Assembly: GCF_045679555.1 (NCBI RefSeq)
Contig: NC_092091.1
Span: 84,077,657 to 84,141,656, forward strand
Direction: 5' to 3'
Length of the DNA stretch: 64,000 nucleotides
Origin: Salvelinus alpinus
Taxonomy: Eukaryota; Chordata; Actinopteri; Salmoniformes; Salmonidae
This document shows, in pieces, positions 18,033-59,479 of this stretch. The notes beneath the pieces are model-generated. The model had not been told where the DNA came from and ran no database searches. It was given only the letters and a program-made list of their open reading frames with translations. The stretch's first letter is position 1, and every line of letters starts with the position of its first letter. The position numbers and the translations under genes were made by a program.

Positions 18033-21000
18033 CTACTCCGTCCCCTGGGCTGCTCTCTCCTCTCCCGGTCCAGCTTCAGCTCTGGAGCTCAGAGAGACCA
18101 TCTCCATGGCATTGACATCAAGATCCATGCTGCTCACCCTGTTCACTCTCTTCTGCCTCCTGGTGGGCTAGGGAGACACAGCACCAACAGTCAGACATTT
18201 AATCGCTAGTATCTCCATTCTCTCTCCCTCCCTCTCCCCCTCACCCTCTAGTTTAAATGACTTGTAACGTCTGAGTAAATGTCTTTACCTTGTAGTACAG
18301 GTAGGAGGTGGTGATGGCTGTCAGTAGGAGCAGCAGCACTACAACGTGTCTGATGATGAAGGCTGGCAGAGGAGAGGCTGCAAACAGAAACACCTTTGAT
18401 GAGGGGACTGATCATCATCACATAGATCTGCGGGAAATCTGTCAATGACAAAGTTATAAGTCTGGTTCATGTTCAGTTACCTGTGATGGTGAGGGAGAGG
18501 AGCTCACTCTCAGAGGAGAAGTTATGAGAGAAAACACAATTGTCATAAACACAGCTGTAGTTCCCTTGGTGGGAGTCATCTGCAGCAGGGAAGAGGAAGG
18601 CAGCAGAGTGATTGACAGCTGGCTGGGTCTGGGTTCTGTTGGAGCCGGTGGACGTGAGGAGGAAGGAGCCTCCTGGGTACTGTGGCTGAGTGGAGCAGGT
18701 GATGGTGAAGCTGTAGCCCCTGAACATCTCGGGCCCCTGGTGGCCCCTGGAGACCCCTCCCATTGAGTCAGTCAAGGAGATATCAGGCTGGACCAGGAGA
18801 TCTGTAACAATAAAAGAGAAGAAGAAAAACCTCTTCAACTAGTTTCCTATAGATATGACAATAACATCAGCATGTAACAGTGCCAGCCACCCTCCCTCAC
18901 AGGGCAACATGAGTAGTGGGCCTACAGTCACTGAGACAACATATGTTGATATCAGGCTTAAGCAGGACATCTGGAACAAGAGGAGAGAAAAAGAAAACGC
19001 TCCTCAACTACTTTCCTCATTTAGATATGACAATAACATGACATGTGACAGTGGTAGTGAGTAGAGACGTTCACTGAGATAACACTCAAATACAAAAGCA
19101 TTCTGGGATATTTAAGTTGTATTTGATTCCCACTTGACTGAGTGATCTATTTTGCAAAGCAGACTGACAAGCTAAACAGTCATCATGAGAGGTGCAGAGG
19201 AAGTTGTATGAATGAAGGAAATCAGTGGAATATAAATATAATATGTTGATATTTCCTGAGCAGATCACTGAGTCCAGGAAGGAGATATAATACATGGACA
19301 AAAGTATGTGGAACTCAGCAGTGAGTTTTACAACAGAGGATTATTTTTACGCTCTACGTGGTTCAACACTCAGCGGTCCGTTCTGTCAGCTTGTGTTGTC
19401 TACCACTTCACGGCTGAGCCGTTGTTGCTCCTAGACGTGCCACGTTGAAAGTCACTGAGATCTTCAGTAAGTCCAATCTACCTTAAGTGTTTGTCTATGG
19501 AGATTGCATGACTGTGTGCTCAATTGTATAAACCTGTCAGCAACAGGTGTGGCTGAAATAGCCGATTCCACTGATGTCCACATACTTTTGGCCACATAGT
19601 GTATCTTGTTATTACCTGAGCAGATCACTGTGAGTCCAGGAAGGAGATCATAGCTTCTGTAACAGTCCCTCAGTGAAGACTCAAACCAATAACAGTAAAC
19701 TCCAAACCCTCTAGTGGTGTTTCCAGGTATTACTGAAACAGTGGAGCCACAACCCAGCTGTCTACACACTACTGCAGCTACATCCTTCTGGTCCCAGTCA
19801 TCAGTTCCCACAATCCTCCACTCTCCCTGGTCGTACCGCTCCAGTCCACCAGCACAGCGACTGCCTCCTCCCACCAGCCTCACATCCTCAGGTTCTGAGA
19901 AAAGAAAAGAGAGAGACAGTAATCTTACTATTTTCTCACTAAAACACACCTATATTGTCTCTCATATTCTTCACTCCAGGTGAAAAACAATGTTGATTGA
20001 GTGACATACTGTTTCTTACCTGAGCAGGTGAGTCCAACAGCATTACCAGGTAGGCAGGTGTTGTGTTTTCTGTCTGAGGTGTCACAGTCCAGGAGAAAGG
20101 ACTCATTGCCTTTACACTGGAACTCTTTATCCCAGGTCTGACCCTCACCTCCTCCATAGAGCCCCCCCTGTAGAGCTGCAGGAGCCCCACAGCCAACATC
20201 CCTACAGACTACCTCTGCATCCTGCCGGTCAAAGTCAGCTTCACACACTGAGGCCCAGGACTGACTGGACTTCACCTCCACTCTCCCAGAGCAGAGACCA
20301 GCTCCATCCACAAGCCGCACAGACTCTGGAGAAAAAGAGTTGGTTGAACATTCAATCAGTTTTGTTGATGACACTGTCAAGGACTAAACACAAATATGTT
20401 GGATAAAAGATTGTAGTTTGCTATGTTTGATACTGTAAGAGGTAGAAATGGGTTCTTAGTCACTCAGGATCGGGTTGGGAATAATGCAGGCAGGAGACAG
20501 GAATAAGTTCACTTCACTTTATAGAAAATAAACAGCTGGACATCCATCAGGCAGCTTCACTTCAGTACCATCTGAACTACAATGATCTGCCCATGAACAT
20601 CTCCCATAAACCAATATGACAAACACAAATATAATGTTTAAATACATCTGACATCTCTCCCTCTATTTAAATTAAATAAAATCACATAAAACATGATACA
20701 TGGTAATATTATATAATGTACAAATAAATCTCTCAATATGACCAGTCTCTTACCTGAACAGATCACATGATGATAATATCCACCATTACAGACACCACGT
20801 CCTCCTTCTCTGATGTCACACTGTCTAATAAAAGACTCATTTCCATCACATCCCAATAGTGCGACTCTTCTTCTTCCATCTTCAACCAGAGGTCCTCTAG
20901 ATGCAGCTACAGGATTCCCACAGTCCAGCTGTCTACACACAACCTTAATCTCTATCATCATGCTCCACAACCTAGAACATAGACCTGACCACTCTCCTCT

Positions 21001-21326
21001 GTAGAAGACTTCCACTGTCCCAGAACAGGAAGTGGTCCCATTCACTAGTCTGACTGAGTATTCAGCTGTAAACAGCAGAGAGGAAAACACAGTGGTGAGG
21101 ACAGATGATGACAGTGATTCTGTTATTCTAACAGCAGTAATGCTTTGTGGTTGACAAGTATTAGTAGTTGCATAAAACACTACTTGTTATTCGGTTTTAG
21201 AATGGTTTGTATGGACACATGAATTTCTCCATGTGGGATAATAAAGTTGACTAATATTGAACTGCTATAATCACTGTAGATTTATACTCTACCTACCTGG
21301 TGGACTGATGCTTTGAGCCTGGAGAT
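18033..21326 (-). CDS. SRCR(x3)-Ig-transmembrane receptor, copy A (5' exon missing)
   Basis: Minus-strand gene with exons 21297-21326, 20754-21065, 20020-20325, 19616-19894, 18481-18801, 18289-18377 and 18033-18167, all with GT-AG borders and matching phase 1 (last junction phase 0). The ~490 residues comprise a 10-residue linker (DLQAQSISPP), SRCR1 (104 residues, 8 Cys), SRCR2 (102, 8 Cys), SRCR3 (93, only 6 Cys) and an Ig-like domain with TITC...NYSCVYD. A transmembrane helix (VVVLLLLLTAITT) and a 44-residue tail ending AAQGTE follow. SRCR domains bind proteins or microbial ligands at the cell surface in CD5/CD6/CD163-type receptors; SRCR plus Ig is less usual. No signal-peptide exon is visible just upstream, where the gene meets repeats, a Tc1 fragment and a polypyrimidine tract. 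Exact orthologue unknown. Confidence 0.85.
19296..19604 (-). mobile_element. Internally deleted Tc1-like copy in SRCR gene A intron
   Basis: The left end has ACAAAAGTATGTGGAAC and the right end CCACATACTTTTGGCCACAT, imperfect inverted ends of the AAAAGTATGTGGACA Tc1 family. Only ~120 bases of transposase sequence remain (around 19345-19460). A related, differently deleted remnant is at the same intron position in gene B (57585-57825), so the insertion predates the gene duplication. Confidence 0.75.
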
Positions 21327-21335
21327 CTGAGGAGA

Positions 21336-21500
21336 AAGAGAGAGACAGAGACAGAGGAGAAAGGGAGGAGTCAGAGGAAGAGAGAGACAGAGGAGAAAGG
21401 GAGGAGTCAGAGGAAGAGAGAGACAGAGGAGAAAGGGAGGAGTCAGAGGAAGAGAGAGACAGAGGAGAAAGGGAGGAGTCAGAGGAAGAGAGAGACAGAG
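21336..21500. repeat. ~36-bp purine-rich tandem repeat, upstream of SRCR A
   Basis: GAGGAAGAGAGAGACAGAGG with AGAAAGGGAGGAGTCA, about 4.5 copies. The same repeat lies at 59482-59792 upstream of gene B. Confidence 0.9.
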
Positions 21501-21587
21501 ATTAAATGAACATCAACATGACCTTTCATGACGTGATGGGAAGACAGGCTTATCATTGGTATGGTGCAACAACACCCATGTGTACAA

Positions 21588-21808
21588 ACACTATATATAC
21601 AAAAGTATGTGGACACCCTTCAAATGAGTGGATTCTATTTCAGGCACACCCCTTCCTGACAGATATATAAAATCAAGCACTCAGCGATGCAATCTCCATA
21701 GACAAACATTAGCAGTAGAATGGCCTTAATGAAGCGCTCAGTGACTTTCAACATGGCAACATCATAGGATACCTCCTTTCCAAGTCAGACGATCAAATTT
21801 CATAATCC
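21588..21808 (-). mobile_element. Tc1-like element end fragment
   Basis: Starts at ACTATATATACAAAAGTATGTGG and carries the terminal part of the AAAAGTATGTGGACA Tc1 family up to GTCAGACGATCAAATTTC. It then stops abruptly at the polypyrimidine tract. Confidence 0.75.
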
Positions 21809-23656
21809 CCCAACTCCTCTCCTCTTATCCCCCTGTCCTATTCCTCTCCTCCAACTCTCCTCATCTGCCCCTCTCCTCCCCTCTTCTCTTCTCCCCCCTC
21901 TCCTCTCCCTCACTTCTCCTCTTATTGTCCTCCCTTCTCCTCTTCTCCCCATCTCTACTCCACTTCTCCCTCTCTCTTCTACTAATCTTCCCCTCTCTTC
22001 TCCCTCTCTCCTCCCCCTCTCCTCATCTTCTCTCCTCTTCTCCCACTCTTCTACCCCCGTTCTCCCCCTCTCTTCTCCTCTTCTCCCCCACTCTTCTCCT
22101 CTTCTCACCCTCTCTTCTCCTCTACACTCCTCCCCCTCTCCTCTTCTCACCCTTTCCTCTCCTCACCTCTCCCTCTCCTCTTCTCCCCCTCTCCACTTCT
22201 CCCCCTCTCTTCTCCTCTTCTGCCTTCTCCCTTCTCCACCCCGCTCTCCTCTCATCTACACTCCTCCCCTCTCCCAGCTCCCCCTCCCTTCTCCTCTTCT
22301 CCCTCTCCTCCCCATCTCTTCTCCTCTTCTCCCCCTCTCTTCTACACCCTCCTCTCTTCCCCTCCCCCCTCCTCTCCTCTTCTCCACCTCTACCCTTCTT
22401 CTCCCCCTCTCTTCTCCCCATCTCATCTCCTCTTTCCCCCATCTCTTCTCTTCTCCACCTCTACTCTTCTCTTCTATCCCTCTCTTCTCCTCTTTCCCCC
22501 ATCTCTTCTCCTCTCCTCTCCTCTCCTCCTTCCCCTCTCTCCCCATCTCTTCTCCTCTTTCCCCGCTCTCCTCTCCTCTCTTCAATTCTCCTCTTCTCCC
22601 CCCCTACTCCCCTCCCCCTCTTCTCTTCCCCACTTCTGCCCCTCTCTTCTCCTCTTGACACTCTATTCTCCTCTTCTCCCCCTCTCATTCTCCCTCCACT
22701 CTTCTCTTCTCCCTCCACTCCTCTTCTCCCCCTCTCCTCTCCTCTTCCCCCTCTTCTCCTCTTCTCCTCTACCCTCTTCTCCCCCTCTCTTCTCCTCTTT
22801 CCCCCCTCTCTTCTCTCTCTTTCCCCATCTCTTCTCCTCTCCTCTCTTCAATTCTCTGCTTCTCACCCTCTCCTCTTCCCCCCCCTTCTCTCCCCATCTT
22901 CTCTCTCCTCTCTCCCTTCTCTTCCTCTCTCTTCTCCACCTCTCTTCTAATCTTCTCCCCTCTTCTCCCCTCTCCTCTTCTGCACCTCTCCTCTTCTCCC
23001 CCATCTCATCTACTCTTCTCTTCTCCCCCTCTCCACACCTCCCCCTCTCTTCTCCTCTCCTCCCCTTCCCCACTTCTGCCCCTTTCTTCCCCTCTTTTGA
23101 CACTCTATTCTCCTCTCCTCTCCCCCTCTCCCCTCCCTTTTCTCTCCACTTCTCCCCCTCTCCTCTCTTCTCCTCTCCCTTCTCCACCCCGCTCTACTCT
23201 ACACTCCTCCCCCTCTCCCAGCTCCCCCTCTCTTCTACACCCTCCTCTCTTATCCCCCTCTCCTCTTCTCTCCTCTTATCCCCATCTCTTCTCCTCTTTC
23301 CCACCTCTCTTCTCCTCTCTTCTCCCTCTCCTCTCTTCTCCTCTCTCCCTTCTCTTCCTCTCTCTTCTCCACCTCTTTTCTAATCTTCTCCCCCCTTCTC
23401 CCCTCTCCTCTTCTCCCCCTCTCTCCTCCCCTCTTCTCTTCTCTCCCTCTCATCTTCTCCAACCCTCTCCTCTCCTCTTCTCCCCTTCCGCCCCTCTCTT
23501 CTCCTCTTTTGACACTCTGTTCACCTCTTCTCCCCCTCTCATTCTCCCTCCACTCCTCTCATCTCTTCCCCTCCCCCCTCTACTCTTCTCCCCCTCTCCT
23601 CTCTCCTCCTCCCCCTCTCTTCTCCTCATCTCTTCTCCTCTTCCCCCCTCTGTTCC
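21809..23656. repeat. 1.85-kb polypyrimidine tract upstream of SRCR A
   Basis: The plus strand is almost only C and T, with rare A/G. A higher-order repeat is visible: TGACACTCT(A/G)TTC recurs near 22657, 23097 and 23511, spaced 440 and 414 bases. Open frames of up to 341 codons in several frames are compositional artefacts. On the coding strand of gene A this is a polypurine tract about 0.5 kb upstream of the first recognised exon. Confidence 0.95.
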
Positions 23657-23658
23657 AT

Positions 23659-24010
23659 TTTAAACAGCCTAACAGGCTCTCCCACCATCTCTAATGATCT
23701 GGTCTGCTTGATGATGAACTAAATGTAGACCACAGCATGATTATTATATGACTACCACATCTCTGTACCCCCACACACACAATCCATGTTTGGCAGATGC
23801 TCTTTTCATTTACAATTTAACCCTTAGTCTACCATTTCTGCAGCCGTGTGGAAATCTGTAACGTCCGATCAGTTTGTCCTGTAAACTGTGGAAAGATGAG
23901 ACTCAGGAACACGATGATGTTCTCCGTTTTGCTCTACGACCCCATAAGCATCGTCTGAAGTCGTACAGTCCATCTGCCAACTTCTGTCTGTAGTGTCAGA
24001 ACCGTTTGGA
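23659..24010. other. Apparently single-copy sequence
   Basis: No gene recognised. The right part (GTGGAAAGATGAGACTCAGGAACACG) resembles the following 70-bp unit and may be its source. A 63-codon minus-strand frame spans it without family motifs. Confidence 0.5.
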
Positions 24011-24013
24011 CTA

Positions 24014-24940
24014 CACACTAACATGACCCCACTATGGAAAGGTGAGTCTCTCAGGAACACGTACAGGTTGTATTGATCTAGGACACACTAACATGACCCC
24101 ACTATGGAAAGGTGAGTCTCTCAGGAACACATACAGGTTGTATTGATCTAGGACACACTAACATGACCCCACTATGGAAAGATGAGTCTCTCAGGAACAC
24201 GTACAGGTTGGTTTGATCTAGGACACACTAACATGACCCCACTATGGAAAGGTGAGTCTCTCAGGAACACGTACAGGTTGGTTTGATCTAGGACACACTA
24301 ACATGACCCCACTATGGAAAGGTGAGTCTCTCAGGAACACGTACAGGTTGTATTGATCTAGGACACACTAACATGACCCAACTATGGAAAGGTGAGTCTC
24401 TCAGGAACACATACAGGTTGTATTGATCTAGGACACACTAACATGACCCCACTATGGAAAGGTGAGTCTCTCAGGAACACATACAGGTTGGTTTGATCTA
24501 GGACACACTAACATGACCCCACTATGGAAAGGTGAGTCTCTCAGGAACACATACAGGTTGGTTTGATCTAGGACACACTAACATGACCCCACTATGGAAA
24601 GGTGAGTCTCTCAGGAACATGTACAGGTTGTATTGATCTAGGACACACTAACATGACCCCACTATGGAAAGGTGAGTCTCTCAGGAACACGTACAGGTTG
24701 GTTTGATCTAGGACACACTAACATGACCCCACTATGGAAAGGTGAGTCTCTCAGGAACACATACAGGTTGGTTTGATCTAGGACACACTAACATGACCCC
24801 ACTATGGAAAGGTGAGTCACTCAGGAACACGTACAGGTTGTATTGATCTAGGACACACTAACATGACCCCACTATGGAAAGGTGAGTCTCTCAGGAACAC
24901 ATACAGGTTGTATTGATCTAGGACGCCCACAAGCTTTACA
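24014..24940. repeat. 70-bp minisatellite, about 13 copies
   Basis: Unit contains CACTAACATGACCCCACTAT, GGAAAGGTGAGTCTCTCAGG and ACACRTACAGGTTG; TACAGGTTG at 24062, 24132 and 24202 gives period 70. Each copy includes GGTGAGTCTC, a donor-like string. Confidence 0.95.
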
Positions 24941-24944
24941 AGAC

Positions 24945-25560
24945 TCGTCTGAAGGTCTCCTGGTACCAGTTTAACACATTTATGGAAGTAGATATGGAGA
25001 TAGTTTAGTTCCAAACAATAAGGGGTGAAATAATGTAAAATTTTAATATTAGTTTCCTGATCTTTTTCCCACAAAATATAAAAATCCCAAGACTATTTGG
25101 CCCTAAACAGACATTACATGGTGACAGACTATCTGATAGAAAACTGAGAAAAAAATGTACAATATACAAATGAAGTGAGCATAGCCTTGCTATTGAGAAA
25201 GGATTGAAACAGGCAGAGAGAAGACTGGCTATGTGCCCACTGCCACAAAATGAGGTGGAAACTGAGCTGTACTTTCTAACCTCCTGAGCTGTACTTTCTA
25301 ACGATATAAGAGACACATATTTCCCTCAGATTACAAAGACCCCAACATTTTTTTTAAACAAATATAATATTGACTAGCTCTCGTATCTGGTAGGTGAAAT
25401 ACCACAGTGTGCAATCATGTCAGCAGAATGTGTGACCTGTTGTGATGAGAACAGGGTAACCAGTGGAGAACAAACACCACAGTAAATAAAACCTAGGACT
25501 AGATTTATCACTTTAGTTAATTTCCCTTGACATTTGTACTTCTACTTTTTGTACACACAT
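24945..25560 (-). mobile_element. L1/Tx1-type LINE remnant
   Basis: Contains TGGCCCTAAACAGACA, GTGAGCATAGCCTTGCTATT and CCACAAAATGAGGTGGAAACT, strings I recognise from a common salmonid LINE 3' region; strand is uncertain. Shorter parts of the same sequence recur at ~36745-36862 and ~55560-55700. No intact frame. Confidence 0.5.
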
Positions 25561-25582
25561 CTCACACTCTCCTACACACACC

Positions 25583-25778
25583 AGCTGACTGAGAGGGCCC
25601 TAGTGGAGCCGGCTGGCTGAGAGGGCCCTAGTGGAACCAGGTGGCTGAGCGGGTCCTAGTGGAACCAGCTGGTTGAGAGGGCACTAGTGTAGCCAGTTGG
25701 TTGAGAGGGCACTAGTGTAGCCAGCTGGTTGAGAGGGCACTAGTGTAGCCAGCTGGTTGAGAGGGCACTAGTGGTACC
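25583..25778. repeat. 28-bp minisatellite, short array
   Basis: CAGCTGGTTGAGAGGGCACTAGTG-type unit, about 7 copies. It is the same unit as the large array at 36864-38333, and in both places follows a fragment of the same LINE remnant. Confidence 0.9.
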
Positions 25779-25779
25779 G

Positions 25780-27150
25780 GGGTACCGGTGCAGAGTCAAT
25801 GTGCGGGTCACCGGTGTCAAGGTTATTGAGGTAATATGTACATGTAGGTAGAGTTATTAAAGTGACTATACATAGATAATAACAGAGAGTAGCAGCAGCG
25901 TAGGCGAAGGGGGGGGGGGGGTGCAAATAGTCTGGGTAGCCATTTGATTAGATGTTCAGGAGTCTTATGGCTTGGGGGTAGAAGATGTTTAGAAGCCTCT
26001 TGGACCTAGACTTGATGCTCCGGAACCGCTTGCCGTGCGGTAGAAGAGAGAACAGTCTATGACTAGGGTGACTGGAGTCTTTGACCATTTTTATGGCCTT
26101 CCTCTGACACCGCCTGGTATAGAGGTCCTGGATGGCAGAAAGCTTGACCCAAGCTTGATGTACTGGGCCGTACGCACTACCCTCTGTAGTGTCATGCGGT
26201 CAGAGATCGATCAGTTGCTATACCAGGCAGTGATGCAACCCGTCAGGATGCTCTCGATGGTGCAGCTGTAGAACCTTTTTAAGGATCTGAGGACCCATGT
26301 CAAATCTTTTCAGTCTCCTTTTGTCGTGCCTTCTTCACGACTGTCTTGGTGTGTTTGGACCATGTTAGGATGTTGGTGATGTGGACACCAAGGAACTTGA
26401 AGCTCTCAACCTGCTCCACTACAGCCCCGTTGATGAGAATGGGGGCGTGCTCGGTCCTCCTTTTCCTGTCTTTCACAATCATCTCCTTTGTCTTGATCAC
26501 GTTGAGGGAGAGATTGTTGTCCTGGCACCACACGGCCAGGTCTCTGACCTCCTCCCTATAGGCTGTCGCACTATTGTCAGTGATCAAGCCTACCACTGTT
26601 GTGTCATCGGCAAACTTAATGGTGTTGGAGTCATGCCTCGGCGTGCAGTCATGAGTGAACAGGGAGTACAGGAGGGGACTGAGCACACAGCCCCCGTGTT
26701 GAGGATCAGCGTGGCGGATGTGTTGTTACCTAACCTTACCACCTGGGGGGGGGGCCCGTCAGGAAGTACAGGATCCTGTTGCAGAGGGAGGTGTTTAGTC
26801 ACAGGGTCCTTAGCTTAGTGATGAGCTTTGAGGGCACTATGGTGTTGAACGCTGAGCTGTAGTCAATGAACAGCATTCTCACATAGGTGTTCCTTTTGTC
26901 CAGGTGGGAAGGGGCAGTGTGGAGTGCAATAGAGATTACATCATCTGTGGATCTGTTGGGGCGGTATGGAAATTGGAGTGGGTCTAGGGTTTCTGGGAAA
27001 ATGGTGTTGATGTGAGCCATGACCAGCCTTTCAAATCACTTCATGGCTACAGACGTGAGTACTACGGGTCGGTAGTCATTTAGGCAGGTTACCTTGGTGT
27101 TCTTGGACACAGGGACTATGGTGGTCTGATTGAAACATGTGGTGGATCTA
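25780..27150 (-). mobile_element. LINE (L2/RSg-1-like), reverse-strand copy
   Basis: Same family as 3113-6380, 3' end on the left. The 3' UTR covers about 25780-26060 and includes a (G)n run at 25910-25921. The RT region follows to about 27020, and further ORF sequence to about 27150. The element is truncated at its 5' side. Confidence 0.85.
26300..27020 (-). pseudogene. LINE reverse transcriptase fragment
   Basis: Two minus-strand pieces carry RT motifs. 26799-27020 reads [16 protein letters not shown] and [11 protein letters not shown]; 26300-26686 reads the [11 protein letters not shown] box and FKFLGVHITNILTW. The region between (GAPQG block) is shifted, with a C/G run near 26744-26756. 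The copy cannot code for an intact enzyme. Confidence 0.85.
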
Positions 27151-27184
27151 ATTTAATACATTTGCTTCTGTCTGTTTTTTAAAT

Positions 27185-27300
27185 AATGAAATTCAAAGGT
27201 CAGGGTCAAGCTGAGCCGGACCAAGAGTGGAAGAGTGGAAAAGGTTACTGGTTGTGATGACATCACTGGTGAGAAGTCAGTAATGAAAAGATATTGAGTT
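27185..27300. repeat. Third copy of the GGTTACTGGTTRTGATGACA block
   Basis: The stretch with GTTACTGGTTGTGATGACAT and CACTGGTGAGAAGTCAGT matches 34845-34950 and 39510-39595, so part of the duplicated ~0.95-kb block also occurs here. Confidence 0.75.
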
Positions 27301-27391
27301 GACTGCATGTTAGTCTGTCAGCCCTATCTCTGTTGACATCTCCCTCTCTCTCCATCTCCCCTCCTCCTCTGTCCCATAGACACATCAAGTA

Positions 27392-29385
27392 GTTTGGGTG
27401 TGTATAAATACAGCTAAACCTAGGGTATGGCTAAATGGGGTGTGTATAAATACAGCTAAACCTAGGGTATGGCTAAATGGGGTGTGTATAAATACAGCAA
27501 AACCTAGGGTATGGCTAAATGGGATGTGTAGAAATACAGCTAAACCTAGGGTATGGCTAAATGGGATGTGTAGAAATATAGCTAAACCTACGGTATGGCT
27601 AAATGGGGTGTGTAGAAATACAGCTAAACCTAGGGTATGGCTAAATGGGGTGTATAGAAATACAGCTAAACCTAGGGTATGGCTAAATGGGGTGTGTAGA
27701 AATACAGCTAAACCTAGGGTATGGCTAAATGGGATGTGTAGAAATACAGCTAAATCTAGGGTATGGCTAAATGGGATGTGTAGAAATACAGCTAAACCTA
27801 GGGTATGGCTAAATGGGGTGTGTAGAAATACAGCTAAACATAGGGTATGGCTAAATGGGGTGTGTAGAAATACAGCTAAACCTAGGGTATGACTAAATGG
27901 GATGTGTAGAAATACAGCTAAACCTAGGGTATGGCTAAATGGGATGTGTAGAAATACAGCTAAACCTAAGGTATGGCTAAATGGGATGTGTAGAAATACA
28001 GCTAAACCTAGGGTATGGCTAAATGGGGTGTGTAGAAATACAGCTAAACCTAGGGTATGGCTAAATGGGGTGTGTAGAAATACAGCTAAACCTAGGGTAT
28101 GGCTAAATGGGGTGTGTAGAAATACAGCTAAACCTAGGGTATGGCTAAATGGGGTGTGTAGAAATACAGCTAAACCTAGGGTATGGCTAAATGGGGTGTG
28201 TAGAAATACAGCTAAACCTAGGGTATGGCTAAATGGGGTGTGTAGAAATACAGCTAAACCTAGGGTATGGCTAAATGGGGTGTGTATAAATACAGCTAAA
28301 CCTAGGGTATGGCTAAATGGGATGTGTAGAAATACAGCTAAACCTAGGGTATGGCTAAATGGGGTGTGTAGAAATACAGCTAAACCTAGGGTATGGCTAA
28401 ATGGGGTGTGTAGAAATACAGCTAAACCTAGGGTATGGCTAAATGGGATGTGTAAAAATACAGCTAAACCTAGGGCATGGCTAAATGGGATGTGTAGAAA
28501 TACAGCTAAACCTAGGGTATGGCTAAATGGGGTGTGTAGAAATACAGCTAAACCTAGGGTATGGCTAAATGGGGTGTGTAGAAATACAGCTAAACCTAGG
28601 GTATGGCTAAATGGGGTGTGTAGAAATACAGCTAAACCTAGGGTATGGCTAAATGGGGTGTGTAGAAATACAGCTAAACCTAGGGTATGGCTAAATGGGG
28701 TGTGTAGAAATACAGCTAAACCTAGGGTATGGCTAAATGGGGTGTGTAGAAATACAGCTAAACCTAGGGTATGGCTAAATGGGGTGTGTATAAATACAGC
28801 TAAACCTAGGGTATGGCTAAATGGGATGTGTAGAAATACAGCTAAACATAGGGTATGGCTAAATGGGGTGTGTAGAAATACAGCTAAACCTAGGGTATGG
28901 CTAATTGGGATGTGTAGAAATACAGCTAAACCTAGGGTATGACTAAATGGGATGTGTAGAAATACAGCTAAACCTAGGGTATGGCTAAATGGGGTGTGTA
29001 TAAATACAGCTAAACCTAGGGTATGGCTAAATGGGGTGTGTAGTAATACAGCTAAACATAGGGTATGGCTAAATGGGGTGTGTAGAAATACAGCTAAACA
29101 TAGGGTATGGCTAAATGGGGTGTGTAGAAATACAGCTAAACCTAGGGTATGACTAAATGGGATGTGTAGAAATACAGCTAAACCTAGGGTATGGCTAAAT
29201 GGGGTGTGTATAAATACAGCTAAACCTAGGGTATGGCTAAATGGGGTGTGTATAAATACAGCTAAACCTAGGGTATGGCTAAATGGGGTGTGTATAAATA
29301 CAGCTAAACCTAGGGTATGGCTAAATGGGGTGTGTATAAATACAGCTAAACCTAGGGTATGGCTAAATGGGGTGTGTAGAAATCC
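27392..29385. repeat. 42-bp minisatellite, about 47 copies
   Basis: Unit AAATACAGCTAAACCTAGGG then TATGGCTAAATGGGGTGTGTA(G/T)A, period 42. Because 42 is a multiple of three, the minus strand is open for 668 codons as a 14-residue repeat (FLHTPFSHTLGLAV) and the plus strand is open in long pieces (CRNTAKPRVWLNGV). Both strands being open argues against selection for coding. Confidence 0.97.
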
Positions 29386-29394
29386 CCCCACCTG

Positions 29395-29710: not shown

Positions 29711-29711
29711 A

Positions 29712-48628: not shown

Positions 48629-49363
48629 AGGCAGAGAAGAGTCTCTCCCGATCATATCACCTCAAGAAACACCAGAGGAGACCCACAGGGAAGAAATCTC
48701 ACTGCTGCTCTGACTGTGGGAAAGGTTGCAAATCTTCATCAGAACTTAAAATACACCAGCGAGTACACACAGGAGAGAAATCTCACCGCTGTTTTGATTG
48801 TGGGAAGAGTTACTTAAGATCAGAATCACTAAAAGTACACATGAGAATTCACACTGGAGAGAAACCTTATAGCTGTGATCAATGTGGGAAAAATTTGACT
48901 CACTCAAACTGCCTGATAGTACATCTGAGAGCACACACTGGAGAGAAACCTTATAGCTGTGATCAATGTGGGAAGAGTTTTACTCACTCAAGCTGCCTGA
49001 TAGTACATCTGAGAGCACACACTGGAGAGAAACCTTATAGCTGTGATCAATGTGGGAAGAGTTTTACTCACTCAAGCTGCCTGATAGTACATCTGAGAGC
49101 ACACACTGGAGAGAAACCTTATAGCTGTGATCAATGTGGGAAGAGATTTGTTTACATCTAGCCATCTGACTATACACCAGAGAACACACACAGGAGAGAA
49201 ATCTTATAGCTGTAGTCAATGTGGGAAGAGTTTTATTCAGTCAAGCAGCCTGGTATCACACCAGAGAACACACACAGGAGAGAAATCTCATAGCTGTGAT
49301 CAATGTCACAAGAGATACTCTGATAAAAGATCTCTGATCAAACATCAGAAAATACATACATGA
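48569..49363 (+). pseudogene. C2H2 zinc-finger gene, finger exon (frameshifted)
   Basis: The exon continues the frame of the 44676 exon if spliced at 48568/48569: RERCDYRGSSGEPQQHHEAD, a linker usual in these genes, then eight fingers. Fingers 1-5 are intact, with HTGEKPYSC linkers; fingers 4 and 5 are identical ([21 protein letters not shown]-type). Finger 6 has an extra T (AGATTTGTTTACATC, ~49146-49156) that causes a stop at 49159-49161. Fingers 6-8 continue in another frame to [11 protein letters not shown] and a stop at 49361-49363. AATAAA at 49558-49563 is a possible polyadenylation signal. With the exon 1 lesions this is most likely a pseudogene; sequencing error is the alternative for the single T. 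Confidence 0.85.
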
Positions 49364-49822: not shown

Positions 49823-49829
49823 CTTTTTA

Positions 49830-51475: not shown

Positions 51476-51478
51476 TTC

Positions 51479-52317
51479 TGTACTACAGAAACACTGCTAA
51501 TCCAACAATAGTGCTAGGTGCCTGTACTACAGAAACACTGCTAATCCAACAATAGTGCTAGGTGCCTGTACTACAGAAACACTGCTAATCCAACAATAGT
51601 GCCAGGTGCCTGTACTACAGAAACACTGCTAATCCAACAATAGTGCTAGGTGCCTGTACTACAGAAACACTGCTAATCCAACAATAGTGCTAGGTGCCTG
51701 TACTACAGAAACACTGCTAATCCAACAATAGTGCTAGGTGCCTGTACTACAGAAACACTGCTAATCCAACAATAGTGCTAGGTGCCTGTACTACAGAAAC
51801 ACTGCTAACTAAACAATAGTGCTAGGTGACTGTACTACAGAAACACTGCTAATCCAACAATAGTGCTAGGTGTCTGTACTACAGAAACACTGCTAATCCA
51901 ACAATAGTGCTAGGTGCCTGTACTACAGAAACACTGCTAATCCAACAATAGTGCTAGGTGCCTGTACTACAGAAACACTGCTAATCCACCAATAGTGCTA
52001 GGTGCCTGTACTACAGAAACACTGCTAATCCACCAATAGTGCTAGGTGCCTGTACTACAGAAACACTGCTAATCCACCAATAGTGCTAGGTGCCTGTACT
52101 ACAGAAACACTGCTAATCCACCAATAGTGCTAGGTGCCTGTACTACAGAAACACTGCTAATCCACCAATAGTGCTAGGTGCCTGTACTACAGAAACACTG
52201 CTAATCCACCAATAGTGCTAGGTGCCTGTACTACAGAAACACTGCTAATCCAACAATAGTGCTAGGTGCCTGTACTACATAAACACTGCTAATCCAACAA
52301 TAGTGCTAGGTGCCTGC
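51479..52317. repeat. 44-bp minisatellite, about 19 copies
   Basis: Unit TGTACTACAGAAACACTGCT AATCCAACAATAGTGCTAGG TGCC, period 44 (51481, 51525). A run of AATCCACC variants is clustered between 51980 and 52220. Confidence 0.97.
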
Positions 52318-52510
52318 ACACTTGAATTAAAGGGGAACTACTCTCAAAAAATGTGTGGTCTCCTGATGTGGTTTAATGGACTTAGAACATACAATTGTAT
52401 TGGTTTTCTGTTTAAAAAAGTCTGACTTTGAGAACAAAAACCTGGGGAAAAAATGAGAGAAATTTTGAAACCTGTGAATTTCTGACTCAGTTTCTCTGTT
52501 TCAATAATAG

Positions 52511-55500
52511 TAATACTATTATCCTACTGAACAGTACAGCTTGGGTTGGTCTACTATTATCCTACTGAACAGTACAGCTTGGGTTGGTCTACTATTATCC
52601 TACTGAACAGTACAGCTTGGGTTGGTCTACTATTATCCTACTGACCAGTACAGCTTGGGTTGGTCTACTATTATCCTACTGAACAGTACAGCTTGGGTTG
52701 GTCTACTATTATCCTACTGAACAGTACAGCTTGGGTTGGTCTATTATCCTACTGAACAGTACAGCTTGGGTTGGTCTACTATTATCCTACTGAACAGTAC
52801 AGCTTGGGTTGGTCTACTATTATCCTACTGAACAGTACAGCTTGGGTTGGTCTATTATCCTACTGAACAGTACAGCTTGGGTTGGTCTACTATTATCCTA
52901 CTGAACAGTACAGCTTGGGTTGGTCTACTATTATCCTACTGAACAGTACAGCTTGGGTTGGTCTACTATTATCCTACTGAACAGTACAGCTTGGGTTGGT
53001 CTATTATCCTACTGACCAGTACAGCTTGGGTTGGTCTACTATTATCCTACTGAACAGTACAGCTTGGGCTGGTCTACTATTATCCTACTGAACAGTATAG
53101 CTTGGGTTGGTCTACTATTATCCTACTGAACAGTACAGCTTGGGTTGGTCTACTATTATCCTACTGAACAGTACAGCTTGGGTTGGTCTACTATTATCCT
53201 ACTGAACAGTACAGCTTGGGTTGGTCTACTATTATCCAACTGAACAGTACAGTTTGGGTTGGTCTACTATTATCCTACTGAACAGTACAGCTTGGGTTGG
53301 TCTACTATTATCCTACTGAACAGTACAGGTTAGGTTGGTCTACCATTATCCTACTATTATCCTACTGAACAGTACAGCTTGGGCTGGTCTACTATTATCC
53401 TACTGAACAGTATAGCTTGGGTTGGTCTACTATTATCCTACTGAACAGTACAGCTTGGGTTGGTCTACTATTATCCTACTGAACAGTACAGCTTGGGTTG
53501 GTCTACTATTATCCTACTGAACAGTACAGCTTGGGTTGGTCTACTATTATCCAACTGAACAGTACAGTTTGGGTTGGTCTACTATTATCCTACTGAACAG
53601 TACAGCTTGGGTTGGTCTACTATTATCCTACTGAACAGTACAGCTTGGGTTGGTCTACTATTATCCAACTGAACAGTACAGTTTGGGTTGGTCTACTATT
53701 ATCCTACTGAACAGTACAGCTTGGGTTGGTCTACTATTTTCCTACTGAACAGTACAGCTTGGGTTGGTCTACTATTATCTTACTGACCAGTACAGCTTGG
53801 GTTGGTCTACTATTATCATACTGAACAGTACAGCTTGGGTTGGTCTACTATTATCATACTGACCAGTACAGCTTGGGTTGGTCTACTATTATCTTACTGA
53901 CCAGTACAGCTTGGGTTGGTCTACTATTATCCTACTGACCAGTACAGCTTTGGTTGGTCTACTATTATCATACTGAACAGTACAGCTTGGGTTGGTCTAC
54001 TATTATCCTACTGAACAGTACAGCTTGGGTTGGTCTACTATTATCCTACTATTATCCTACTGAACAGTACAGCTTGGGTTAGTCTACTATTATCCTACTG
54101 AACAGTACAGCTTGGGTTGGTCTACTATTATCCTACTGAACAGTACAGCTTGGGTTGGTCTACTATTATCCTACTGAACAGTACAGCGTGGGTTGGTCTA
54201 CGATTATCCTACTGACCAGTACAGCTTGGGTTGGTCTACTATTATCCTACTGAACAGTACAGCTTGGGTTGGTCTACGATTATCCTACTGACCAGTACAG
54301 CTTGGGTTAGTCTACTATTATCCTACTGAACAGTACAGCTTGGGTTGGTCTACTATTATCCTACTGAACAGTACAGCTTGGGTTGGTCTACTATTATCCT
54401 ACTGAACAGTACAGCTTGGGTTGGTCTACGATTATCCTACTGACCAGTACAGCTTGGGTTGGTCTACTATTATCATACTGAACAGTACAGCTTGGGTTGG
54501 TCTACTATTATCCTACTGAACAGTACAGCTTGGGTTGGTCTACGATTATCCTACTGACCAGTACAGCTTGGGTTGGTCTACTATTATCCTACTGAACAGT
54601 ACAGCTTGGGTTAGTCTACTATTATCCTACTGAACAGTACAGTTTGGTTGGTCTACTGTTATCCTACTGAACAGTACAGCTTGGGTTGGTCTACTATTAT
54701 CCTACTGAACAGTACAGCTTGGGTTAGTCTACTATTATCCTACTGAACAGTACAGTTTGGTTGGTCTACTATTATCCTACTGAACAGTACAGCTTGGGTT
54801 GGTCTACTATTATCCTACTGACCAGTACAGCTTGGGTTGGTCTACTATTATCCTACTGACCAGTACAGCTTGGGTTGGTCTACTATTATCCTACTGAACA
54901 GTACAGCTTGGGTTGGTCTACTATTATCCTACTGAACAGTACAGCTTGGGTTAGTCTACTATTATCCTACTGAACAGTACAGTTTGGTTGGTCTACTGTT
55001 ATCCTACTGAACAGTACAGCTTGGGTTGGTCTACTATTATCCTACTGAACAGTACAGCTTGGGTTGGTCTACTATTATCCTACTGAACAGTACAGCTTGG
55101 GTTGGTCTACTATTATCCTACTGAACAGTACAGCTTGGGTTGGTCTACTATTATCCTACTGAACAGTACAGCTTGGGTTGGTCTACTATTATCCTACTGA
55201 ACAATACAGCTTGGGTTGGTCTACTATTATCCTACTGACCAGTACAGCTTGGGTTGGTCTACTATTATCCTACTGAACAGTACAGCTTGGGTTGGTCTAC
55301 TATTATCCTACTGAACAGTACAGCTTGGGTTAGTCTACTATTATCCTACTGAACAGTACAGCTTGGGTTTGTCTACTCTTATCCTACTGAACAGTACAGC
55401 TTGGGTTGGTCTACTATTATCCTACTGAACAGTACAGCTTTGGTTGGTCTACTATTATCCTACTGAACAGTACAGCTTGGGTTGGTCTACTATTATCCTA

Positions 55501-55524
55501 CTGAACAATACAGCTTGGGTTGGC
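52511..55524. repeat. 38-bp minisatellite, about 79 copies
   Basis: Unit TACTATTATCCTACTGAACA GTACAGCTTGGGTTGGTC, period 38 (52523, 52561). Variants (GACCAG, TTAGTC, CGATT, loss of CTA) cluster in blocks, and some multi-unit blocks are repeated (for example near 53060 and 53380), so higher-order duplication has occurred. Confidence 0.97.
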
Positions 55525-55559
55525 CTGTAACAAGTAATTAAATAGTAAAAAGTAATTAA

Positions 55560-55700
55560 AGAGCAGCAGTAAAATAACAATAGCAGGACTATATACAGGT
55601 GGGTACCTGGCTCTCAAGAGTAGACAGGCTATGTGCACACAGCCCACAAAATGAGGTGGAAACTGAGATGCACTTCCTAACCTCCTGCCAAATGTATGAC
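55560..55700. mobile_element. L1/Tx1-type LINE remnant (short)
   Basis: GACAGGCTATGTGCACACAG and CACAAAATGAGGTGGAAACT match the remnant at 25220-25300. Confidence 0.55.
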
Positions 55701-55701
55701 C

Positions 55702-55992
55702 AGTTAATTCATACTGTATGTTGTAGTCTGTCCAAGAGGGGAATCACACAGACTGATCTCAGTTAATTCATACTGTATGTTGTAGTCTGTCCAAGAGGGG
55801 AATCACACAGACTGATCTCAGTTAATTCATACTGTATGTTGTAGTCTGTCCAAGAGGGGAATCACACAGACTGATCTCAGTTAATTCATACTGTATGTTG
55901 TAGTCTGTCCAAGAGGGGAATCACACAGACTGATCTCAGTTAATTCATACTGTATGTTGTAGTCTGTCCAAGAGGGGAATCACACAAGACTG
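55702..55992. repeat. 59-bp minisatellite, copy near SRCR gene B
   Basis: Same unit and period as 16138-16466, about 5 copies. Confidence 0.95.
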
Positions 55993-56004
55993 ACAGCCTG
56001 TCAT

Positions 56005-56010
56005 TTTATT
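56005..56010 (-). terminator. Candidate polyadenylation signal, SRCR gene B
   Basis: AATAAA on the coding strand, ~355 bases after the stop codon of gene B and next to the 59-bp repeat. Confidence 0.4.
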
Positions 56011-56364
56011 AAAAGCATTCAGTTGATTACATGGCAGTTGAAAGAGCATCTTAACAAAAATCTACATAATAATAAATCTCATAACAATTATAATCAATAA
56101 CATAATTATCTCTATACTACTAACAACATCATAACAATAATCTAAATCATAATCAATATCATAACATTTATAATCAATAACATCATTATCTATATACTAT
56201 ATATTCCAAGGTTCTAGAAAGATAAACTAATTATGAACTTGTTATTAAAATTAGAACCACTTCAGGTTTGTCACCACATTTTAAACACCAGTCCACTGCT
56301 GACCATCGATTTAAAACACAAAACTGACCTAAGATCAGCATGTAGGATCAGCTTCATTCTACTC

Positions 56365-59300
56365 CTACTCCGTCCCCTGGGCTGCTCTCTCCTCTCCCGG
56401 TCCAGCTTCAGCTCTGGAGCTCAGAGAGACCATCTCCATGGCATTGACATAAAGATCCATGCTGCTCACCCTGTTCACTCTCTTCTGCCTCCTGGTGGTC
56501 TAGGGAGACACAGCACCAACAGATAGTCATTTACTCTCTAGTATCTCCATTGTCTCTCCCTCTCCCCCTCACCCTCTCCCTCTAGTTTAAATGACTTGTA
56601 ACGTCTGAGTAAATGTCTTTACCTTGTAGTACAGGTAGGAGGTGGTGATGGCTGTCAGTAGGAGCAGCAGCACTACAACGTGTCTGATGATGAAGGCTGG
56701 CAGAGGAGAGGCTGCAAACAGAAACACCTTTGATGAGGGGACTGATCATCATCACATAGATCTGTGGGAAATCTGTCAATGACAAAGTTATAAGTCTGGT
56801 TCATGTTCAGTTACCTGTGATGGTGAGGGAGAGGAGCTCACTCTCAGAGGAGAAGTTATGAGAGAAAACATAATTGTCATAAACACAGCTGTAGTTCCCT
56901 TGGTGGGAGTCATCTGCAGCAGGGAAGAGGAAGGCAGCAGAGTGATTGACAGCTGGCTGGGTCTGTGTTCTGTTGGAGCCGGTGAACGTGAGGAGGAAGG
57001 AGCCTCCTGGGTACTGTGGCTGAGTGGAGCAGGTGATGGTGAAGCTGTAGCCCCTGAACATCTCGGGCCCCTGGTGGCCCCTGGAGACCCCTCCCATTGA
57101 GTCAGTCAGGGAGATATCAGGCTGGACCAGGAGATCTGTAACAATAAAAGAGAAGAAGAAAAACCTCTTCAACTAGTTTCCTATAGATATGACAATAACA
57201 TCAGCATGTAACAGTGCTAGCCACCCTCCCTCACAGGGCAACATGAGTAGTGGGCCTACAGTCACTGAGACAACATATGTTGATATCAGGCTTAAGCAGG
57301 ACATCTGGAACAAGAGGAGAGAAAAAGAAAACGTAGCTCCTCAACTACTTTCCTCATTTAGATATGACAATAACATGACATGTGACAGTGGTAGTGAGTA
57401 GAGACGTTCACTGAGATAACACTCAAATACAAAAGCATTCTGGGATATTTAACTTGTATTTGATTCCTACTTGACTAAGTGATCTATTTTGCAAAGCAGA
57501 CTGACAAGCTAAACAGTCATCATGAGAGGTGCAGAGGAAGTTGTATGAATGAAGGAAATCAGTTGAATATAATTATAATACAATACATGGCGAAAAGTAT
57601 GTGGAAGTTTCAACCAAGGACAGACAATTCTTACACTTCGCGGCTGAGCAACTGTTGCTCCTAGACGTGTTATGGTAAAAGTCACTGAGCTCTTCAGGTC
57701 ATTCCACTGCCAATCTATGAAGATTGTACCAGCGTGTGCTTGATTTTATTATACACCTGTCAGCAATGGGTGAGGCCGAAACAGCCAAATGCACTAATGT
57801 CCACTTACTTTTGGCCATATAGTGTGTCTTGTTATTATTACCTGAGCAGATCACTGTGAGTCCAGGAGAGAGATAATAACTTCTAGAACACTCCCTCAGT
57901 GAAGACTCAGACCCAGAACAGAAAACTCCAAACCCTCTAGTGGTGTATCCAGGTGGTACTGAAACAGTGGAACCACAACCCAGCTGTCTACACACTACTG
58001 CAGCTACATTCTCCTGGTTCCAGTCCTCAGCTCCCACAATCCTCCACTCTCCCTGGTCGTACCGCTCCACTCCACCAGCACAGCGACTGCCTCCTCCCAC
58101 CAGCCTCACATCATCAGGCTCTGAGAAAAGAAAAGAGAGAGACAGTAATCTTACTATTTTCTCACTAAAACACACCTATATTGTCTCTCATATTCTTCAC
58201 TCCAGGTGAGAAACAATGTTGATTGAGGGACAAACTGTTTCTTACCTGAGCAGGTGAGTCCAACAGCATTACCAGGTAGGCAGGTGTTGTGTTTTCTGTC
58301 TGAGGTGTCACAGTCCAGGAGAAGGGACTCTTTGCCTTTACACTGGAACTCTTTATCCCAGGTCTGACCCTCACCTCCTCCATAGAGCCCCCCCTGTAGA
58401 GCTGCAGGAGCCCCACAGCCAAGCTCCCCACAGACTACCTCTGCATCCTGCCGGTCAAAGTCAGCTTCACACACTGAGGCCCAGGACTGATTGGACTTCA
58501 CCTCCACTCTCCCAGAGCAGAGACCAGCTCCATCCACAAGCCGCACAGACTCTGGAGAAAAAGAGTTGGTTGAACATTCAATCAGTTTTGTTGATGACAC
58601 TGTCAAGGACTAAACACAAATATGTTGGATAAAAGATTGTAGTTTGCTATGTTTGATACTGTAAGAGGTAGAAATGGGTTCTTAGTCACTCAGGATCGGG
58701 TTGGGAATAATGCAGGCAGGAGACAGGAATAAGTTCACTTCACTTTATAGAAAATAAACAGCTGGACATCCATCAGGCAAATATAATGTTTAAATACATC
58801 TGACATCTCTCCCTCTATTTAAATGAAATAAAATCACATAAAACATGATACATGGTAATATTGTATAATGTACAAATAAATCTCTCAATATGACCAGTCT
58901 CTTACCTGAACAGATCACATGATGATAATATCCACCAAAACAGTAACCAGGTCCTCCTCCTGTGATGTTACACTGTCTAACAGAAGACTCATTTCCACTG
59001 CAATGCAATAGTGTGACTCTTCTTCTTCCATCTTCAACCAGACGTCCTCCAGATTCAGATACAGGATTCCCACAGTCCAGCTCTCTACACACAACCTTAA
59101 CCTCTCTCATCATGCTCCACCAACTAGGACATAGACCCAACCACTCTCCTCTGGAGAAGACTTCCACTGTCCCAGAACAGGAAGTGGTCCCATTCACCAG
59201 TCTGACTGAGTCTTCAGCTGTAAACAGCAGAGAGGAAAACACAGTGGTGAGGACAGATGATGACAGTGATTCTGTTATTCTAACAGCAGTAATGCGTTGT

Positions 59301-59479
59301 GGTTGACAAGTATTAGTAGTTCCATAAAACACTACTTGTTATTGGGTTTTAGAATGGTTTTGTATTGACACATGCATTTCTCCATGTGGGATAATAAAGT
59401 TGATTAATATTGAACTGCTATAATCACTGTAGATTTATACTCTACCTACCTGGTGGACTGACGCTTTGAGCCTGGAGAT
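56365..59479 (-). CDS. SRCR(x3)-Ig-transmembrane receptor, copy B (5' exon missing)
   Basis: Paralogue of gene A with the same seven exons and the same exon lengths: 59450-59479 (30), 58906-59217 (312), 58246-58551 (306), 57842-58120 (279), 56815-57135 (321), 56623-56711 (89) and 56365-56499 (135). All splice borders are GT-AG, with no stop or frameshift seen. Domains: linker DLQAQSVSPP, SRCR1 (8 Cys), SRCR2 (8 Cys), SRCR3 (6 Cys), Ig-like domain, transmembrane helix and 44-residue tail (TTRRQKRVNR...AAQGTE). By hand count it differs from A at 32/312 bases in SRCR1, 6/306 in SRCR2, 23/279 in SRCR3 and 4/321 in Ig. It is presumably a cell-surface immune receptor. No signal-peptide exon was found upstream; an inverted promoter-like segment and a polypyrimidine tract lie there instead. 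Confidence 0.85.
57585..57825 (-). mobile_element. Deleted Tc1-like copy in SRCR gene B intron
   Basis: Ends GGCGAAAAGTATGTGGAAG and CTTACTTTTGGCCATATAGT; orthologous in position to 19296-19604 but with a different internal deletion. Confidence 0.7.

Follow-up and report, generated by a model that had tools for sequence, protein, structure and literature searches.

Genes A and B, both located in the window (the whole stretch of 64,000 nucleotides that was analysed), belong to a family of at least 42 gene copies encoding a membrane receptor built from three SRCR domains and a single Ig domain. In this family, three loops each of SRCR1 and SRCR3 outpace both synonymous sites and neighbouring introns by a wide margin, while SRCR2, the Ig domain, the transmembrane (TM) segment and the tail are near constant. 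We consider diversifying selection on the ligand face, combined with exchange among copies that homogenises the rest, to be the best explanation and a probable one for this array of SRCR receptors with hypervariable loops.

As judged by splice sites, each SRCR domain is encoded by one exon (Table 1). All three exceed the Pfam SRCR cut-off of 26.1 bits (66.9 for SRCR1, 78.4 for SRCR2, 43.8 for SRCR3) and thus belong to the SRCR superfamily, with eight conserved cysteines in SRCR1 and SRCR2, and six in SRCR3. Group B SRCR domains are defined by eight cysteines and one exon per domain. The candidate mini exon is present in 20 out of 20 ten-kb stretches, no start of the gene being located, and the cytoplasmic tail comprises 44 residues without an ITIM. 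No leader (signal-peptide) exon was found in 2.5–4.6 kb of upstream DNA: strict rules applied to three loci yielded none, and looser rules applied to 20 upstream stretches yielded, among the candidates listed, none common to more than two loci. Searches of the window gave no Rfam matches and no tRNAs.

Table 1. Exons, intron and hypervariable loops of genes A and B (positions in the window).
Feature	Position	Strand	Basis or alignment columns
Gene A mini exon (candidate, 30 bp, upstream of SRCR1)	21297..21326	-	splice sites
Gene A SRCR1 exon, 312 bp, hypervariable	20754..21065	-	splice sites; Pfam SRCR PF00530, E 2.1e-18
Gene A SRCR1 loop 1, directly after second conserved Cys	20944..20976	-	alignment columns 30-41
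Gene A SRCR1 loop 2, around fifth conserved Cys	20839..20871	-	alignment columns 66-84
Gene A SRCR1 loop 3, between sixth and seventh conserved Cys	20791..20817	-	alignment columns 92-105
Gene A SRCR1-SRCR2 intron; family diversity 0.017	20326..20753	-	A/B alignment and family diversity
Gene A SRCR2 exon, near-invariant across family	20020..20325	-	splice sites, Pfam, diversity
Gene A SRCR3 exon, hypervariable	19616..19894	-	splice sites, Pfam, diversity
Gene A SRCR3 loop 1	19782..19805	-	alignment columns 30-37
Gene A SRCR3 loop 2	19686..19712	-	alignment columns 61-69
Gene A SRCR3 loop 3	19638..19661	-	alignment columns 80-89
Gene A Ig exon	18481..18801	-	Pfam ig PF00047, E 1.6e-6; splice sites
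Gene A TM exon; Arg at outer edge	18289..18377	-	splice sites
Gene A short cytoplasmic tail exon, holds stop	18033..18167	-	splice sites
Gene B mini exon (candidate, 30 bp)	59450..59479	-	match to gene A
Gene B SRCR1 exon	58906..59217	-	match to gene A
Gene B SRCR2 exon	58246..58551	-	match to gene A
Gene B SRCR3 exon	57842..58120	-	match to gene A
Gene B Ig exon	56815..57135	-	match to gene A
Gene B TM exon	56623..56711	-	match to gene A
Gene B cytoplasmic tail exon	56365..56499	-	match to gene A

The copy number, a lower bound, is that of complete or almost complete SRCR2 exons found along one chromosome (C6); 41 copies lie within 2.7 Mb, dispersed in both orientations, and two of the 42 (at 84906341 and 91173640) stand outside the sequence comparison. 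Among 37 SRCR1 exons located beside an SRCR2 exon, 34 are intact (300–330 bp, lengths being multiples of three), and three, L013, L014, and L018, have a frameshift or stops. The rates for SRCR1 are based on the 34 exons and leave out these three, as well as the further SRCR1 copies L049–L055 and one extra SRCR1 copy each from L025 and L026. SRCR1 copies L052 and L055 look broken. Seven out of eight SRCR1 cysteines are kept in all 34 copies, and the remaining one in 32.

Our comparison of A and B gave the same counts of differing bases as the original prediction for SRCR1 (32/312), SRCR2 (6/306), SRCR3 (23/279), and the Ig exon (4/321); the other exons differ at 0/89 (TM), 2/135 (tail), and 1/30 (mini exon). 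Amino acid changes number 17 in SRCR3, as claimed, 24 in SRCR1, where about 21 had been suggested, six in SRCR2, and two in the Ig domain. The intron upward from 20326 in A and 58552 in B, said to be identical over about 215 bases, has zero differences over 228 bp, past which B has a 74-bp gap. Against the pooled introns around SRCR1–3 (11/710), the Fisher p-value is 1.7e-9 for SRCR1 and 1.3e-6 for SRCR3, and SRCR2 indeed stays close to the intron level (p = 0.60). The idea that the exons diverge faster than their introns holds on both sides of SRCR1, but only on the 5′ side of SRCR3, because the noncoding repeat DNA just 3′ of SRCR3, omitted in the original prediction, diverges between A and B at least as much as SRCR3 itself.

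Across the copies compared, the rates for SRCR1 and SRCR3 point to diversifying selection. According to pairwise counting, which needs no tree, dN/dS is 1.92 (1.35–2.91, n = 34) for SRCR1 and 2.60 (1.86–3.78, n = 39) for SRCR3, with dN ≤ dS in 0 out of 1000 codon bootstraps in both cases. The codon model, which uses a single tree and ignores recombination, yields omega of 2.5 and 2.9, omega = 1 being worse by 28.0 and 28.6 lnL units, respectively; the value given for kappa made no difference, and in the model without kappa omega = 1 is worse by 19.3 and 25.1 units. SRCR2 is nearly invariant, its dN/dS of 1.98 (0.95–4.42) being obtained at very low divergence and not significant in the codon model, and dN/dS of the Ig exon is about 1.0 (n = 13 copies). 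In four near-duplicate gene pairs, SRCR1 and SRCR3 pooled have 22.5 replacement versus 3.5 synonymous changes, and comparison of this replacement rate with introns gives p = 0.002 (22.5 being rounded to 23, and the number of sites approximate).

Relaxed constraint or pseudogenisation, with copies decaying and exons drifting, would agree with the three broken SRCR1 exons out of 37, and with the fact that only 10 out of 21 copies in ten-kb stretches combine an intact SRCR1 with all six main exons located inside the search distances. We rejected this explanation as very improbable, since dN/dS is well above 1 rather than near it, indels are in frame, cysteines are kept, and the TM segment and tail hardly differ among the 14 copies in which both could be located.

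The variation in SRCR1 and SRCR3 is concentrated in three loops each, where replacements and in-frame indels accumulate with the cysteines kept. With loop borders picked from the same alignment that yields the rates, dN and dS are 0.338 and 0.159 in the loops versus 0.085 and 0.053 in the framework of SRCR1, and 0.349 and 0.106 versus 0.043 and 0.026, respectively, in SRCR3. Diversity in 20-base windows is as low as 0.00–0.03 between loops inside the exons and at the SRCR3 exon end (this profile leaves out the broken L013, L014, L018, and also L017). Such clustering of changes, together with the proportion of multi-base codon differences (37–40% in the loops versus 24% and 9% in the framework), might also result from GC-biased gene conversion or a local AID-like mutation hotspot that accelerated both exons. 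However, a crude count with the majority base taken as ancestral gives no G/C bias (W>S 0.405 per W site versus S>W 0.643 per S site in SRCR1, 0.325 versus 0.500 in SRCR3), and WRC/GYW sites show no clear excess of variability over other C/G in SRCR1 (12/20 versus 68/123) and SRCR3 (15/35 versus 47/117), being somewhat more variable in SRCR2 (11/35 versus 27/137) and introns (15/59 versus 23/157). Neither process explains dN > dS with kept cysteines, and both were rejected for want of a clear signal in this count, the explanation being scarcely plausible.

The SRCR1 loops occupy the place where other SRCR domains hold the cation/ligand site, and most of this site has been lost. They cover seven out of eight positions equivalent to the DMBT1 cation/ligand residues listed in the excerpted structural study (PMC7043408). 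Acidic residues are found at the equivalents of D1019 in 0, D1020 in four, D1023 in two, and D1058, D1059, and E1086 in 0 out of 34 copies; the N1081 equivalent is acidic in two and Asn in three out of 34, and only at the D1026 equivalent is the acidic residue kept in 33 out of 34. Thus, SRCR1 largely lacks the acidic residues that cation-dependent binders of the DMBT1 type have at sites 2 and 3. The six site columns tested (30, 31, 35, 39, 105, 110) are more variable than random ones, with 27 out of 10000 draws being as variable. In two related SRCR families, on C36 and C1, most acidic residues are kept, and dN < dS in nine out of 10 non-identical pairs, that is, there is no excess of replacement change; in these controls, SRCR exons were recovered in seven out of 10 stretches, and some pairs are two domains of one gene.

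As dS of SRCR1 (0.080) and SRCR3 (0.045) exceeds the intron diversity across the family (0.017–0.022), selection on new mutations alone is insufficient, and the exons must also hold older alleles or imported pieces. The imports might be whole exons, converted from an older diverse pool of SRCR1 and SRCR3 exons without ongoing selection on the loops; this is compatible with the raised dS, with the synonymous change in SRCR1 being also higher in the loops (0.104 [0.016–0.211] versus 0.034 [0.016–0.056] per site, the error ranges being wide and overlapping), and with the existence of SRCR1 copies lacking an adjoining SRCR2 match. Still, it seems unlikely: conversion alone does not yield dN > dS, near-duplicate pairs carry new replacement changes, and the alleles at each loop are nearly all private to a single gene (26–30 distinct alleles in 33 genes). 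Besides, a whole-exon donor for A or B was rejected, as the nearest SRCR1 among the copies compared is 4.6% away for A and 9.6% for B; their nearest SRCR1–SRCR2 introns are 0.5–0.6% away. Rather, what points to exchange between copies is that the histories of the segments mostly do not correlate, 40 out of 45 pairs having no significant Mantel correlation (29 out of 33 genes, one of each near-duplicate pair being dropped). Within-exon recombination is modest, the PHI-like test giving 10/1000 at 30 bp and 76/1000 at 100 bp for SRCR1, and 46/1000 and 360/1000, respectively, for SRCR3. Thus, the original interpretation, diversifying selection or conversion importing exons, is supported, as dN/dS exceeds 1 in both exons by counting and on the tree, and no closer donor paralogue was seen among the copies compared; it is refined in that the varying unit is three loops, not the whole exon.

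The strong divergence of the SRCR3 3′ flank counts against a simple exon story. This noncoding stretch, free of coding selection, has diversity of 0.17 over 140 bp (15 out of 20 ten-kb copies), which, along with the raised exon dS, would be expected if conversion stalled at the indel-rich, divergent SRCR1, SRCR3, and repeat flank, so that these islands escaped homogenisation and kept old neutral divergence. But neutral divergence predicts dN ≤ dS, opposite to what is observed; frame, cysteines, and splice sites are kept; and diversity drops between the loops and at the SRCR3 exon end, a conserved segment (0.022 in the bridging 20-base window) that separates the last loop from the flank. Moreover, the flank was rejected as a clean neutral yardstick because it is a dispersed repeat, for which 40 of 2146 candidates were scored: copies from other chromosomes share 83–90% identity with that of A, and the listed C6 copies, 86–96%. 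Hence we regard such an escape as quite unlikely.

If selection on the loops and exchange among copies act together, each copy would have its own ligand face, set on a stalk and anchor that all copies share. Selection would favour novelty at the ligand face, and short gene-conversion or unequal-exchange events would keep the remainder of the gene uniform and shuffle short pieces, so that the history of a loop would bear little relation to that of the other loops or of the introns. With the binding loops driven apart and little else, the genome apparently holds a heritable collection of related receptors that differ in their binding surfaces; this repertoire would most likely recognise pathogens or self/allo ligands. 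Signalling may go via an adaptor protein, since the tail is short and lacks an ITIM, and the TM segment starts with Arg. A bolder and only tentative possibility is a germline repertoire using the SRCR fold like an antibody V domain: two domains of each chain would combine a constant framework with three CDR-like loops of variable length, these loops having arisen from a cation site since lost and being shuffled by conversion events of very short extent. Expression might be clonal or variegated, as in WC1.

By analogy, cattle WC1 appears to be the nearest known case. WC1 proteins, which are group B SRCR co-receptors of gamma delta T cells, contain at least six SRCR domains, arranged in the WC1 order, and carry tyrosine motifs in a long tail. 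Both families comprise multigene SRCR membrane receptors with a variable N-terminal SRCR domain. According to the available parts of the respective papers, bovine WC1 molecules are encoded by 13 genes (PMC3511184); variability peaks in their N-terminal domain (identity down to 50.4%), domain 9 being 88–99% identical (PMC2681482); and some of the domains, including the outermost one, bind Leptospira, with transcription being variegated (PMC5949365). Similarly, SRCR1 varies most in our array and SRCR2 is near-constant, but SRCR3 varies as well. Other differences are the at least 42 copies, the three SRCR and one Ig domains with a short ITIM-less tail instead of the WC1 architecture (within the DNA examined; exons further upstream are possible), variability lying in three loops of SRCR1 and SRCR3 with introns nearly identical, and the loss of most of the cation site in SRCR1.

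Teleost finTRIMs, as described in the excerpted report, are another multigene family of fish in which positive selection centres on loops, namely, variable B30.2 loops thought to face ligands (PMC2657112), but these are TRIM proteins with a different fold. Chicken chromosome 16 carries clustered SRCR receptor genes, as here, many of them, unlike here, reported in the part of the source seen to have ITIMs, with no mention there of hypervariable loops (PMC8813856). No fish SRCR array with such loops was found among the matches listed in the mostly openly available literature.

The array offers an example from nature of selection pulling against homogenisation along a single 1.5-kb gene segment, and, with the rest of the gene almost identical, ligand differences between copies could be tested directly. 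DMBT1/SALSA and CD163-type proteins belong to the same domain family (Pfam SRCR; PDB matches by sequence). The loops varying here hold the cation/ligand site in DMBT1/SALSA, whose structures, in the excerpt cited, prompted the suggestion of a single conserved, cation-dependent binding surface common to SRCR domains (PMC7043408). Whereas those proteins keep the acidic cation-dependent site, SRCR1 has replaced and diversified most of it: in one chromosome region, dozens of copies have largely given up the shared surface and, it seems, diversified it under selection.

The A/B difference counts of the original prediction were reproduced exactly by alignment of the two gene copies in the window (SRCR1, 32/312; SRCR2, 6/306; SRCR3, 23/279; Ig, 4/321), and the SRCR1-SRCR2 intron, counted from 20326 in A and 58552 in B, runs for 228 bp without any difference. 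Measured against nearby introns (11/710), the differences are in excess in SRCR1 (p = 1.7e-9) and SRCR3 (p = 1.3e-6), and SRCR2 remains near the intron level, its excess being not significant (p = 0.60).

The window corresponds to C6:84077657-84141656 in a 2.37-Gb genome. A search of this genome with the SRCR2 protein yields at least 42 full or nearly full copies, in both orientations, on C6, the chromosome of the receptor array (41 of the 42 within 83.25-85.95 Mb and one at 91.17 Mb), and at least 41 full or nearly full Ig exons are found on the same chromosome. Among C6 copies, identity to gene A is 91-98% for SRCR2 and Ig, and 68-89% for SRCR1. Our sample consists of 40 of the 42 SRCR2 copies, giving 37 SRCR1, 40 SRCR2, and 39 SRCR3 exons, and of 13 Ig exons coming from longer stretches only. 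The family contains four pairs of near-duplicate genes. Separately, the genomic stretches L050 and L051, which are separated by about 600 kb and lie on opposite strands, carry SRCR1 exons with identical protein, due either to inverted duplication or to duplication in the assembly; the near-duplicates, too, may be true or assembly duplicates.

The tree-free pairwise counting gives dN 0.153, dS 0.080, ratio 1.92 (1.35-2.91) for SRCR1, and dN 0.116, dS 0.045, ratio 2.60 (1.86-3.78) for SRCR3, as expected under diversifying selection, one of the two mechanisms named in the original prediction. For SRCR2, the ratio is 1.98 (0.95-4.42; dN 0.0215, dS 0.0108), with dN not exceeding dS in 35 of 1000 bootstraps, and for Ig it is 1.02 (0.56-2.40). 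A tree-based codon model gives the same picture: omega is 2.52, 2.88, and 1.52 for SRCR1, SRCR3, and SRCR2, and fixing it at 1 costs 28.0, 28.6, and 1.2 lnL units, respectively (19.3, 25.1, and 0.3 in the model without kappa). Recent changes show the same excess: in the four near-duplicate pairs, replacement changes in SRCR1 and SRCR3 pooled number 22.5 and synonymous ones 3.5. Replacements are also more frequent per site than intron changes (p = 0.002; for this test, 22.5 was rounded to 23 and the number of sites was approximated).

Two more SRCR+Ig families of this genome, located on C36 and C1, served as a control: dN is below dS in nine out of ten non-identical pairs (in the tenth, dN 0.043, dS 0.042), and most, but not all, of the acidic cation-site residues are kept (one C1 domain lacks the first pair). 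Neither GC-biased conversion nor AID-type hotspots are clearly supported as a cause.

As in a V domain, the SRCR protein alignment has three variable loops in a constant framework. In both SRCR1 and SRCR3, loop 1 lies just before the conserved AVVCR/KVVCR segment, loop 2 surrounds the Cys within the segment C-x-G-x-E-S, and loop 3 comes after the following Cys. Both domains have a loop dN of about 0.34-0.35, compared with framework values of 0.085 (SRCR1) and 0.043 (SRCR3), and loop lengths differ by whole codons.

DMBT1 residues were mapped onto SRCR1 by counts from conserved cysteines and by CD163 alignments, with an assumed DMBT1 motif spacing. According to PMC7043408, the cation/ligand residues of DMBT1 SRCR8 are D1019, D1020, D1023, D1026, D1058, D1059, N1081, and E1086. 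Seven out of eight equivalents, all except E1086, fall within SRCR1 loops. An acidic residue occurs in four out of 34 SRCR1 copies at D1020, in two each at D1023 and N1081, and in none at D1019, D1058, D1059, and E1086, the latter being an invariant Tyr; D1026 is still acidic in 33 out of 34. As the acidic residues are mostly absent and most of the sites lie within loops, the former cation/ligand site of SRCR1 is largely lost, its position now likely being the variable face.

Intron diversity is 0.017-0.022 in introns flanking the SRCR exons and 0.0045 in the Ig-TM intron. Synonymous diversity in the exons of SRCR1 and SRCR3 exceeds this intron diversity by a factor of two to nearly five, and thus these exons must be older than the flanking DNA or hold imported pieces. 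Directly 3' of SRCR3 lies a dispersed transposon-like repeat, presumably resembling a Tc1-type element, whose diversity is far above that of other introns (0.17 in the first 140 bp, 15 usable of 20 ten-kb copies). Among the matches listed, identity to the repeat of A is 83-90% on other chromosomes and 86-96% on C6, and hence the repeat may be subject to exchange among copies, or its diversity may merely reflect its age. This diverse flank weakens the SRCR3 part of the claim that both exons diverge faster than their own introns; the SRCR3 dN/dS is unaffected. About 33 bp of the SRCR3 exon end are repeated beyond the repeat in many copies. Minisatellite-type arrays are abundant in the window, those in the table being accompanied by others.

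Coordinates of repeats in the window and of short-frame Ig exon copies on C6
Feature	Coordinates	Remarks
Transposon-like repeat 3' of SRCR3	window 19290-19613; 57581-57841
36-bp tandem repeat (12 codons per unit)	window 21329-21500 (A); 59485-59791 (B)	4.8 and 8.6 copies; immediately 5' of the 30-bp candidate exon
Minisatellite	window 7034-14269	68-bp units, ~107 copies, 96% matches
Minisatellite-type arrays	window 52514-55523; 27396-29383
Tandem array, 84-bp units	window 48834-49306	between A and B; consensus presumably resembles C2H2 zinc fingers
Ig exon copies, slightly shorter open frame (112 aa)	C6:84270168-84280627; C6:77468844-77472302	spaced 2.4-4 kb at the former; perhaps a sister Ig gene type

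Distances computed for the loops, the framework, SRCR2, and the introns rarely correlate with each other (Mantel tests, p<0.05 in 5/45, low intron variation limiting the power), the strongest correlation being that between loop 2 and the framework of SRCR1 (r = 0.52). Incompatible pairs of informative sites make up 39% in SRCR1 and 51% in SRCR3, with a modest PHI-like test only. Near-duplicates aside, loop alleles are rarely common to two genes, e.g., A and L022 (SRCR1 loop 2), L015 and L032 (loops 1 and 3), or L010 and L029 (loop 3), where L-numbers denote stretches with family copies. We read these data as homogenisation, by which the constant parts would be equalised among copies, combined with very short exchanges that the loops would undergo; recurrent mutation could be behind part of the loop/segment pattern.

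The exons located encode SRCR1-SRCR2-SRCR3-Ig, followed by one predicted TM and a tail of 44 residues; the latter two are nearly identical across the 14 copies with both located. A leader exon was sought in 2.5-4.6 kb of DNA upstream of the copies and not found. An ITIM is absent from the tail, and Arg is the first residue of the TM, which suggests that the putative receptor would pair with an ITAM adaptor.

The nearest known case is cattle WC1. According to PMC2681482, WC1 domain 1 varies most and domain 9 least, and the authors considered selection on a binding domain 1; according to PMC5949365, Leptospira is bound by some WC1 SRCR domains. The outer SRCR domain is variable in both systems. 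However, the number of domains, the Ig domain, and the tail set the present family apart, and thus it is not classed as WC1; it is a diversified SRCR receptor family.
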